A stretch of DNA of 7,353 bases from assembly GCA_021160245.1 (NCBI GenBank), contig JAGHCW010000216.1, positions 1-7,353 of the forward strand. The letters are read 5' to 3'. This document shows positions 4,345-7,353 of this stretch, piece by piece. The position numbers were made by a program, and so were the translations under genes. A model generated the notes under the pieces. The model searched no databases. It was not told the DNA's origin and worked only from the letters and a program-made list of their open reading frames with translations. Source of the DNA: a bacterium. GTDB taxonomy: Bacteria; B130-G9. Numbering within the stretch: position 1 is the first letter of the stretch; each line of letters begins with the position of its first letter.

Positions 4345-4654
<310 letters not shown>

Positions 4655-4732: not shown

Positions 4733-4918
4733 ATGACGGACAGAGTCAAGCTCTGGGATAAGGCGGTTAAGGATTTCCCCGAGGACCCGGCTCTTCAGGA
4801 AGTCCATTATGCTCGATTGAAGATACATCAGAAGACGCGGGGAATGTCGGATGAGGAGTTCGTTCAGTTCATAAAGGCGCAAGCCAAGAAGGCCCGTTCG
4901 ACCGCCCAGAAGTGTTGA
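4733..4918 (+). CDS. Small conserved hypothetical protein, copy 1
   Basis: The protein has 61 residues from ATG 4733; AAGG at 4719-4722 is 10 nt upstream. ATG 4724 is an alternative that adds three residues but lies against that site. The sequence is charged and helical, with the core DFPEDPALQEVHYARLKIH (14-32) and MSDEEFVQFIKAQAKKA (38-54). The second half resembles short helical proteins of many bacteria with an R..I...T.GMS.EE....I...A pattern, often without assigned function and sometimes next to toxin genes. A second, N-terminally different copy lies 780 bp downstream, on the other side of hicBA. Conservation of the reading frame between the copies (40 of 48 shared residues identical) supports a real gene. 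An antitoxin-like role is possible but only inferred from position. Confidence 0.65.
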   Translation: MTDRVKLWDKAVKDFPEDPALQEVHYARLKIHQKTRGMSDEEFVQFIKAQAKKARSTAQKC

Positions 4919-4920
4919 AG
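4771..4920 (+). repeat. 150-bp direct repeat, copy 1 (partner 5551-5700)
   Basis: This segment aligns without gaps to 5551-5700 at an offset of exactly 780 bp, with 18 mismatches (about 88% identity by hand count). It covers the small protein from its DFPEDPALQE motif to just past the stop. Similarity ends abruptly on both sides. Confidence 0.92.
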
Positions 4921-4959
4921 ACTATTAACGGAGCTGAATGAGGATGCGCGCGATCTTGC

Positions 4960-5178
4960 TCATTCGAACTCAGCGCGCGGAATGCCTGACTGTCTTATGA
5001 TGGACATTAGTGTTCCCGTTCTTATTTCGTTGTGGTCTGGGACAGGGACGGTGATTGTGCTGCCCGGTATCTGCTTCTGCATGACCACATGACTTCCACG
5101 CGTCCGTATTTTCTCGAACCCGTGGGACGTGAGGATTTGGCAGACTTCTTTCCCTGACAGGACCTTGAGCCTACCCAA
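4960..5178 (-). CDS. hicA: HicA-type mRNA interferase toxin
   Basis: This 72-residue protein is a small double-stranded-RNA-binding-fold toxin that cleaves mRNA and is neutralised by HicB. The family pattern is complete: LSGKEVCQIL (7-16), GFEKIRTRGSHVVM (20-33) with the catalytic histidine at residue 30, VPVPDHNEI (44-52) and TGTLMSIIRQSGI (54-66). The start is a TTG with GTGGAG about 7 nt upstream, inside the end of hicB, so the two reading frames overlap by 8 nt. The weak start codon and overlap fit translational coupling that keeps toxin at or below antitoxin level (inference). The gene is full length for the family and its catalytic residues look intact. It ends shortly after, and convergent to, the small protein gene on the other strand. 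Confidence 0.94.
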   Translation of the reverse strand: MGRLKVLSGKEVCQILTSHGFEKIRTRGSHVVMQKQIPGSTITVPVPDHNEIRTGTLMSIIRQSGIPRAEFE

Positions 5179-5392
5179 CCGCTATCTCCACTTGGGTTAC
5201 GTACACCTCACCACATAATCTGTTTCTGATTTCATCTTTAGACGCAGTTTCAAAGAAGAGCTCTAATGCTTCTTTCAGATTGTCTCTCGCCTCACCAACT
5301 GTCTCCCCTTGGCTTGCGACATCTACTTCAGGACACAACGCCACGTAACCGTTATCTTCCTTTTCTATGATCGCGGTTAGCTGCCTCATCAT
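5171..5392 (-). CDS. hicB: HicB-type antitoxin
   Basis: The 73-residue partner of HicA starts at ATG 5392, with AGAGGTGA at 5396-5403 as ribosome site; an adjacent second ATG could also serve. It has the HicB partial RNase H-like fold: LTAIIEKEDNGYVALCPEVD (5-24), VASQGETVGEARDNLKEALE (25-44) and LFFETA, which correspond to the conserved CPE, SQG.T..EA..NL.EA pattern. The protein ends right after the fold, so it has no obvious C-terminal ribbon-helix-helix or helix-turn-helix. Autoregulation by direct DNA binding, known for longer HicBs, is therefore doubtful here. hicB precedes hicA, the order common for short-HicB systems. The pair sits between two direct copies of another small gene. Confidence 0.94.
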   Translation of the reverse strand: MMRQLTAIIEKEDNGYVALCPEVDVASQGETVGEARDNLKEALELFFETASKDEIRNRLCGEVYVTQVEIAVG

Positions 5393-5459
5393 AAATCACC
5401 TCTCATCGGCTATTCCCTTCCCTAACCTCTAGACCACCCATAGTACGGGGCAAAAACTA

Positions 5460-5481
5460 AAGCGCTGAAGGAGCGGCGCTT
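5460..5481 (+). promoter_or_regulatory. Hairpin with the Shine-Dalgarno in its loop, before small-protein copy 2
   Basis: AAGCGC (5460-5465) and GCGCTT (5476-5481) are perfectly complementary around a 10-nt loop that contains AAGGAG (5468-5473). The GTG start at 5483 follows 9 nt after that ribosome site. It may merely decide the start, or the hairpin may tune translation. Confidence 0.35.
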
Positions 5482-5482
5482 C

Positions 5483-5698
5483 GTGCTGCTCACAGGGCTC
5501 AACCTGAATATAGGGCGTAGAGGCGACGAATTGTCAAGCAATTCGCTCAGGGATTTTCCCGAGGACCCGGCTCTTCAGGAAATCCACTTCGCCAGGTTGA
5601 AGATACATGAGGCTACCCGGGGAATGTCGGATGAGGAGTTCGTTCAGTTCATAAAGGCGCAAGCCAATAAGGCCCGTTTGGCCGCCCATAAGTGCTGA
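5483..5698 (+). CDS. Small conserved hypothetical protein, copy 2, with a replaced N terminus
   Basis: Its 71 residues start from GTG 5483, chosen for AAGGAG 9 nt upstream. From residue 24 on (DFPEDPALQEIHFARLKIHE and onward to the terminal AHKC) it matches copy 1 at 40 of 48 residues. The first 23 residues (LLTGLNLNIGRRGDE and so on) are unrelated to copy 1's TDRVKLWDKAVK. The reading frame stays open upstream to a TAG at 5441, so this 5' part could be a remnant of another gene fused to the repeat. It may therefore be a chimeric gene or a non-functional partial duplicate. The stop lies 3 nt from the end of the convergent aroB remnant. Confidence 0.5.
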   Translation: MLLTGLNLNIGRRGDELSSNSLRDFPEDPALQEIHFARLKIHEATRGMSDEEFVQFIKAQANKARLAAHKC

Positions 5699-5700
5699 AG
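5551..5700 (+). repeat. 150-bp direct repeat, copy 2 (partner 4771-4920)
   Basis: This is the second copy of the segment at 4771-4920, in the same orientation. The two copies bracket the hicBA module and a 90-nt region upstream of hicB. Most differences fall in the middle (5587-5618), while 5619-5666 is almost unchanged. Confidence 0.92.
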
Positions 5701-5701
5701 C

Positions 5702-5926
5702 CTAGCGAGTCAGCTGCCTCAGCACCCGCTCGATCTCGCCATCATCAATCGGCTCGGATAGGAACGCATCGCCGAAGTCGCGGAGGAGGATGAACCTGAT
5801 CCGGCCATCTTTTGCCTTTGCATCGACGCGCATTTACGGTATCAAAGCCACATCGGCGATATGTCGAGGCAGAGGCAGCGCAATCGCCTTGCTATGACTT
5901 TCAGAGACGCGCGGAGGAACTTGACC
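5702..5926 (-). pseudogene. Decayed 3' fragment of a second aroB-family gene
   Basis: On the minus strand, 5833-5702 encodes MRVDAKAKDGRIRFILLRDF, then GDAFLSEPIDDGEIERVLRQ and LTR before TAG. The intact aroB-family gene at 6656 has MRVDAKAKDGRIRFILLKDF then GDTFLSEP at its own C terminus, so this is the same domain end. Just upstream, a TAA (5836-5834) replaces the codon for the Glu before MRVD; it follows LPLPRHIADVALIP, which matches the intact AGLPTHLPPEIDPASLIP. Further upstream the similarity seems to change frame (KFLRASLKVIARRL, like the helix before that motif). No more of the enzyme is found, because the metallo-hydrolase gene ends at 5927. It cannot be functional as an enzyme. Confidence 0.85.
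5745..5834 (-). repeat. aroB 3'-end repeat, remnant copy (partner 6705-6794)
   Basis: This 90-bp stretch aligns without gaps to 6705-6794 at an offset of 960 bp, with about 16 mismatches (roughly 82% identity, hand count). Several runs are identical, such as the 10 nt of TGAACCTGAT and CATCGACGCG. Both copies are on the minus strand. Confidence 0.88.
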
Positions 5927-6568
5927 TCATTTGTGGGAGGATAGTGCTATTTTCAGTGAACGTTTTATTGCCTCATTGCATCCTTTGAGAAGGGGCTTTC
6001 CGTGACCGAAGTAGATCGACTTGATTTTCCTTCTAGCGATGTCTTTTAGGGCGCTGATGAACCCCGATTCGTAAGAACCTGAGTACCGGATTATCACCGG
6101 GGTATCGCCCACGAAAAGAACACCATCTTCTTCGCAGTAGAGGCAAACCGAGTCGCCTGTGTGCCCGGGGCTGTGAATGACCTCAAATGTCCGGTCTCCC
6201 ATCTTCAGGACATCTTTGTCATAGAGCTTCTGTTTTCTGGGGCATTTCCCATCCTGGGATGATGGATTGACGGGACATCGCTTGTCTTGAAGAGAAAGGG
6301 GGTCCCAAGCATACACGGTCGGCCGAAACGCCTCGCAAACCTGAGTGAGAAGCCCAGTGTGATCGTAGTGGTTATGAGTTAGAACAACCTGAGCCACCCT
6401 TTTCTTGCCGGCCCCCGTCCAGGTGTCGTTGATCATCTGAATCGCCGCTGGGTCTCTGCCCACATCCACGAGCGTGTTCATGTCCGCAAGCGCGTTATGG
6501 TCACCAAGAACGAAGTAAACGTTGCTGGTGTAGGTAGTGCTGTTCTCTGTGAGATTCAGTATCTTCAT
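5927..6568 (-). CDS. Metallo-beta-lactamase-fold hydrolase
   Basis: This is a 213-residue metal-dependent hydrolase of the MBL superfamily, close in style to glyoxalase II-like proteins and lactonases. The dinuclear metal site is complete: THNHYDHTG (64-72; H65, H67, D69, H70), HSPGHTGDS (132-140; H136), FVGDTP (152-157; D155) and FGHGKP (187-192; H189). A cysteine-containing insert at about 95-120 (KRCPVNPSSQDGKCPRK) lies between the first and second motif and may shape the active-site entrance. I chose ATG 6568 because MKILNL..NSTTYTSNVYFV is where the first beta strand normally begins; a TTG at 6628 would add 20 residues without MBL character. There is no strong ribosome site. It follows the aroB-family gene on the same strand and ends at the aroB remnant. 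The substrate is unknown. Confidence 0.9.
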   Translation of the reverse strand: MKILNLTENSTTYTSNVYFVLGDHNALADMNTLVDVGRDPAAIQMINDTWTGAGKKRVAQVVLTHNHYDHTGLLTQVCEAFRPTVYAWDPLSLQDKRCPVNPSSQDGKCPRKQKLYDKDVLKMGDRTFEVIHSPGHTGDSVCLYCEEDGVLFVGDTPVIIRYSGSYESGFISALKDIARRKIKSIYFGHGKPLLKGCNEAIKRSLKIALSSHK

Positions 6569-6634
6569 TTGTCTATCGTCATCGCAAGGGTCTTGTGTTG
6601 AGCATCGCGTCCAAACAGCGAATTCCAATACTAA

Positions 6635-6655: not shown

Positions 6656-7353
6656 TCATGCTGAGTCGCTCATCTGGCTCAGAATCGAGAAAATTGTTTC
6701 TTCTGGGACCGGCTCAGATAGGAACGTGTCGCCGAAATCTTTTAGCAGAATGAACCTGATCCGGCCATCCTTGGCCTTTGCATCGACGCGCATCTCGGGA
6801 ATGAGGCTTGCGGGATCGATCTCAGGCGGCAAGTGCGTCGGGAGGCCGGCCATCTCGATTAGTTTGCGCTGGAACTCGATCTGCTCGGGCTTCAGGAAGC
6901 CCAAGTTGCTGGATAGAAGCGCCGCGCCGTGCATCCCGATGCCGAGCGCGGTGCCGTGCGCCATCTGATAGTTGGTCACCTTCTCGATTGCATACGTGAT
7001 CGTGTGACCCCAGTCGAGGGCGAGGCGCTCGCCGGAAAGGCCAGTCTCGTCGCGCTCGATTATCGCTATCTTGATGCGGTTTGCCTCAATAATATATTCA
7101 AGCGCCTTGTCCATGTTGCGAGCGGCTATCTCGGGCATATCCGCCGTCAGTCCGTCGATCTTGCCACCGAGGCCCGCGACCTTATTGATAATCTCCGCGA
7201 TGCCGTTGACGAACTCTGCGCCTGGCAGCGTCTCGAGGCATTTAAGGTCGAGTATCGCGGCCCTTGGCTGGTAAAACGTGCCGATGAGGCTCTTGCCGAG
7301 CGGGTGGTCAACCGCGCAGCCACCGATGCCGATGTCAACTTGCGAGAGAAGCG
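6656..7353 (-). CDS. aroB: 3-dehydroquinate synthase (AroB)-family sugar-phosphate cyclase, 5' end outside the window
   Basis: The open frame enters at the right edge and ends at TGA 6656, giving about 232 C-terminal residues; the NAD-binding N-terminal half is outside. Recognisable blocks in order: LLSQVDIGIGG, AVDHPLGKSLIGTFYQP, LETLPGAEFVNGIAEII, RIKIAIIERDETG, ERLALDWGHTITYAIE, MAHGTALGIGM, MRVDAKAKDGRIRFILL. AroB converts DAHP to 3-dehydroquinate in aromatic amino acid synthesis. The three metal ligands known for the family (Glu in AEII, His in GHT, His in AHG) are kept. Several substrate-contact positions differ: GGKTAVNHP is GGCAVDHP (one residue shorter), GKN is GKS, AEVIK is AEIIN, LNLGHTFGH is LDWGHTITY and DKK is DAK. 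It may therefore be a divergent AroB or a related cyclase with another substrate. Confidence 0.85.
   Translation of the reverse strand, partial: LLSQVDIGIGGCAVDHPLGKSLIGTFYQPRAAILDLKCLETLPGAEFVNGIAEIINKVAGLGGKIDGLTADMPEIAARNMDKALEYIIEANRIKIAIIERDETGLSGERLALDWGHTITYAIEKVTNYQMAHGTALGIGMHGAALLSSNLGFLKPEQIEFQRKLIEMAGLPTHLPPEIDPASLIPEMRVDAKAKDGRIRFILLKDFGDTFLSEPVPEETIFSILSQMSDSA
6705..6794 (-). repeat. aroB 3'-end repeat, intact-gene copy (partner 5745-5834)
   Basis: This part of the intact aroB-family gene encodes the MRVDAKAKDG to FLSEP segment and is repeated 960 bp to the left as a gene remnant. Between the two copies lies the complete MBL gene. Confidence 0.88.

Follow-up and report, generated by a model that had tools for sequence, protein, structure and literature searches.

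Insertion with long target duplication is known for restriction-modification (R-M) genes in Helicobacter (Nobusato et al. 2000, Gene 259:99, as related in PMC3031569, PMC2749054 and PMC4978471). As far as these accounts describe it, an addiction-type gene pair is surrounded by long direct repeats of its target, and the length of the duplication is large and variable. A second precedent is given by the T6SS effector-immunity modules of Vibrio cholerae, for which displacement via homology-facilitated illegitimate recombination has been proposed (PMC5361080). The arrangement presented here is a variant of the known insertion geometry, of which several cases occur in one genome: its cargo, a hicBA pair, likewise lies between long direct repeats of the target. 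In contrast to the Helicobacter cases, as far as they are covered by these accounts, the cargoes are toxin-antitoxin and other genes, the targets are gene 3' ends, the copies of one target (aroB) look as if they had diverged under constraint, and no strain with an empty site was found at this locus. With the V. cholerae modules it would share a homologous anchor on one side and an illegitimate join on the other, as well as displaced 3' ends and orphan immunity genes (here antitoxin-like) that are left behind; it differs in the gene families involved, in that cargo was added and no toxin domain replaced, and in that one genome and not a population is considered.

The stretch of DNA analyzed, in the following the window, is the entire contig C5 (7353 bases) of the genome (G000) of an uncultured bacterium; this genome has 3.43 Mb, consists of 244 contigs and is rated 95% complete. 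Its features are:

4362..4654, + strand: GIY-YIG-like decayed gene, recognized by reading the frames; flanks the locus and lies outside the insertion
4733..4918, + strand: small gene copy 1, complete with 61 aa; homologues in bacteria and archaea, with a PIN neighbor there
4764..4959, + strand: left copy of the duplicated target; 3' part of the small gene plus an aroB 3' relic (4919-4959)
4960..5543, no strand: inserted segment, hicBA and its upstream region; 584 bp between sharp similarity edges
4960..5178, - strand: hicA, 72 aa, start TTG; Pfam HicA_toxin (PF07927), E 1.8e-18; G-S-H kept (RTRGSHVVM)
5171..5392, - strand: hicB, 73 aa, overlaps the hicA start; UPF0150 1.5e-4 and HicB_lk_antitox 0.0037, both under the curated cut-off
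5544..5739, + strand: duplicated target, right copy; small gene lacking its 5' end, followed by the aroB 3' end
5702..5880, - strand: displaced aroB 3' fragment, about 55 codons, with an in-frame stop; upper limit approximate
5927..6628, - strand: metallo-beta-lactamase-fold gene, second cargo between aroB copies; Pfam Lactamase_B 4.1e-21
6656..7353, - strand: intact 3' part of aroB, which extends into contig C136; last 15 codons differ from those of relatives

A preliminary description of this DNA had reported ungapped 150-bp direct repeats, about 88% identical, around a hicBA pair on the opposite strand, and these were confirmed: 4771-4920 and 5551-5700 agree at 132 of 150 bases (88%) in register at a spacing of 780, the longest identical run being 50. 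A repeat search of the window extended them to 4764-4959 and 5544-5739 at 82% identity; as the BLAST E-value of the match is 6e-51, the repeats are not due to chance. At both edges (4764/5544 and 4959/5739), the similarity ends abruptly. The further claim that both repeats encode a small protein did not hold. The full gene, with an ATG at 4733 (start assigned by homology) and a stop at 4916-4918, exists in copy 1 only; copy 2 lacks the gene start: its homology sets in within the gene, at 5544, and its listed ORF begins in unrelated sequence. Past the stop of the small gene, both repeats continue with the aroB 3' end, which is encoded on the opposite strand. This end reads DGEIERVLRQLTR followed by a stop in copy 2; copy 1 retains no more than a relic, where 4921-4959 agrees with 5701-5739 at 24 of 39 bases, a value that 0 of 20000 shuffles reach and that is somewhat selected, as the extension of the repeats had itself set the limits of these 39 bases. 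Left flank, target, and right flank form one coherent site, consisting of the full small gene, 3 bp, and the aroB 3' end. As each repeat also carries the aroB 3' end, the small gene was probably arranged tail-to-tail with aroB before the insertion. This neighborhood was seen only at the window locus; a relative with a true empty site, i.e. a single uninterrupted target, was not found for it, nor was a second genomic copy. Mechanically, the two repeats could recombine and thereby delete 780 bp. In the GIY-YIG-like relic on the left, a 13-bp tandem duplication (4393-4418) breaks the frame; its family was assigned by eye, and the piece 4505-4651 had no Pfam match.

The cargo resembles HicBA type II toxin-antitoxin systems in that a HicA with the G-S-H motif and an overlapping HicB-like gene are present; it differs in that HicB is short and under the Pfam cut-off, with hicB preceding hicA. 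HicA is a clear family member, whose conserved histidine is found in RGSHVV. For the HicB-like protein, no DNA-binding domain was detected. The insert border coincides with the hicA stop codon. The 584 bp hold hicA and hicB only and, unlike icd/e14-type integrative elements with a displaced 3' end, no integrase. Within the family genomes, the closest other HicA matches are at most 45% identical, which is consistent with acquisition but no proof of it. Ubiquitin matches for HicA were set aside as sums of weak repeats. Another HicA-domain gene is located just upstream of aroB on contig C136 (L078 599-814).

To the right of hicBA, a second repeat pair (5750-5842 and 6710-6802) consists of aroB sequence, with the metallo-beta-lactamase-fold gene in between, whose best relatives in the family are about 40% identical. 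The intact aroB reaches the window end, which overlaps the end of C136, and carries on there. In two other genomes (G001, G003), a D-Ala-D-Ala ligase-like gene (named by eye) directly follows aroB. The aroB fragment and the intact gene agree at 26 of 28 residues before the tail but at only 3 of the last 15. Compared with relatives, the fragment matches 7-9 of these 15 residues and the intact aroB 3-4. As the tail of the fragment is family-like and that of the intact gene is not, the displaced piece looks like the old aroB end.

A self-comparison, which covered 121 stretches with 1.39 Mb (about 40% of the genome), revealed three further loci of the same shape. On C45 (L118 127-1964), a VapBC-like pair has a NucS-like nuclease gene on one side and a decayed piece from the 3' part of that gene on the other; another piece of this nuclease gene adjoins a transposase-like ORF on C97 (L199). 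On C48 (L121 1574-5548), a type IIG R-M gene is followed by a 270-aa ORF without Pfam match and an R-M 3' fragment with an in-frame stop. On C87 (L160 4202-5912), two HEPN-MNT pairs come after uvrB, the first of them broken, with a copy of the uvrB 3' end between the pairs; the two uvrB ends are identical at 119 of 120 bases. G001 has uvrB-HEPN-MNT once, and its HEPN protein is 57% identical to the outer C87 copy versus 48% to the inner one, so that the inner module is likely the newcomer. In all five loci (hicBA, metallo-beta-lactamase, C45, C48, C87), which were hand-picked and all stem from one genome, the fragment is found on the 3' side of a gene. Other repeats were not counted as loci: those on C7, C16, and C70 resemble dispersed intergenic repeats, the one on C36 a tRNA, and those on C71 internal gene repeats. 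On C111 (L184), a repeat close to gene starts appears to be upstream sequence common to two different genes. Dispersed intergenic repeats occur at L080 6452/7481, L089 15278/18921, and L143 559/1214.

No named family in Pfam, NCBIfam, PADLOC, or PDB matches the small protein convincingly. Relatives were found in Cloacimonadota, Desantisbacteria, Aerophobetes, Deltaproteobacteria, Methanophagales, Loki- and Freyarchaeota, and other genomes. A search of related genomes, which had been suggested beforehand, showed that the small protein occurs without hicBA: in 17 of 25 informative loci (the window locus and one contig-edge locus being left out), a PIN-domain gene, sometimes broken, lies directly upstream, and the proteins encoded there match Pfam PIN. 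The combination with hicBA was not common; hicA was nearby at one other locus only (L014, Freyarchaeota), next to a PIN gene. Given the frequent PIN gene upstream, the small protein probably serves as the antitoxin to PIN toxins of an unnamed family; we infer its toxin-antitoxin function from this pairing, and the two genes constitute a candidate toxin-antitoxin family. As in VapBC-type pairs, a PIN gene adjoins a small gene; unlike there, the small partner lacks a convincing named-family match and comes after the toxin gene, and the window contains no PIN gene. A sequence search of the PDB yielded no relatives of the small protein or of its PIN family. Pairs of a PIN gene and the small gene (motif FPxDPALQxVHxAR) are conserved in bacteria and archaea, for example at L012, L016, L024, L045, and L046; in Methanophagales, the small gene adjoins HEPN-like or MNT-like genes instead of PIN (L018 2391-2829, L023 391-889). 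In the window's genome, 95% complete, a profile of the partner PIN proteins detected no member of this PIN family, and no PIN relic was seen upstream of either small-gene copy; both copies are therefore, as far as visible, orphan homologues of a PIN partner. No relative of the small protein was confirmed in viral contigs or plasmids, and no DNA match of the locus was found in plasmids; carriage on a mobile element was accordingly rejected.

The repeats, their sharp edges, the full left and the truncated right copy, and the aroB sequence in both are directly seen; from these we infer the mechanism of insertion. With moderate confidence, we favor that hicBA was added at the junction of the tail-to-tail orphan PIN-partner gene and aroB by homology-anchored, illegitimately joined incoming DNA, leaving about 196 bp of the target on both sides. 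The incoming DNA, probably from a related lineage, would have found a homologous anchor in the gene end, with an illegitimate join at its other end. The recipient gene would thus keep a complete 3' end, while the displaced end stays behind; the addiction property of hicBA may then help the pair to persist, and the small protein would probably be the antitoxin of a PIN toxin now gone. The proposal that the module had inserted with duplication of a target gene is supported by four similar loci in the same genome, although the target comprises the ends of the small gene and of aroB and not a whole gene.

The choice of this route rests on the divergence of the aroB copies, on the failure to find Ku, and on the presence of ComEC in four family genomes. 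In 84 bases, the aroB copies differ at 12 bases and 2 residues; the changes are mostly synonymous, with dN/dS of about 0.09. Under a null model of local duplication with one copy constrained and the other free, the P-value for so few non-synonymous changes is 0.01-0.05 for aroB, 0.05-0.15 for the nuclease, 0.12-0.25 for the small gene, and 0.7 for the R-M gene; plain duplication followed by decay is thus not rejected for the small gene. This null model is the fairer one, as testing against fully neutral copies overstates the case. For aroB only, the scarcity of non-synonymous changes favors copies that diverged in separate genomes before meeting, and this divergence may indicate that DNA of a diverged relative was taken up with homology as its anchor. 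No Ku was detected in any of the four family genomes; ComEC is common and its presence proves little.

A strict insertion with long target duplication, in which the recipient's own target was duplicated (e.g. by staggered breaks and fill-in) and the copies diverged afterwards, would create the same geometry, and the near-identical uvrB copies as well as the decay-like differences at the R-M locus (dN/dS 0.57) agree with it. However, the two copies of aroB seem to have diverged under constraint, the unusual tail is that of the intact gene, and Ku was not detected; we consider this course of events rather unlikely, though it is the strongest competitor. Still less probable is that the small gene and the aroB end were duplicated in tandem first and that hicBA landed between the copies later by chance. 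The two small-gene copies are indeed sisters, identical at 110 of 126 positions compared with 88 and 84 of 126 to the other Coatesbacteria homologue, but the insert spans exactly the gap from one target edge to the other, and other cargoes show the pattern again. It is very improbable that the small protein is a functional third component of this hicBA system, beside which the two genes were selected to stay: hicBA lies beside small genes at L014 too, but L014 also has a PIN gene, the remaining loci show no hicA and commonly PIN, and copy 2 has no start of its own.

Returning to homology-anchored addition, a wider reading can be put forward tentatively, at somewhat less than even odds: in this lineage, toxin-antitoxin and other small cargoes would be gained recurrently and genome-wide at gene 3' ends by recombination with relatives, displaced ends being left behind, and the small protein would mark an undescribed PIN toxin-antitoxin family of bacteria and archaea. 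As several more genes were inserted in the same way in the same genome, the locus suggests that such pairs are placed beside resident genes through recombination in which the insertion site becomes duplicated. For the question of how small toxin-antitoxin pairs enter chromosomes without a transposase or integrase, a genome that carries several inserts of different age, one of them almost fresh (uvrB, 119/120), would allow the duplicated target, the junctions, and the ancestry of the donor to be read directly.
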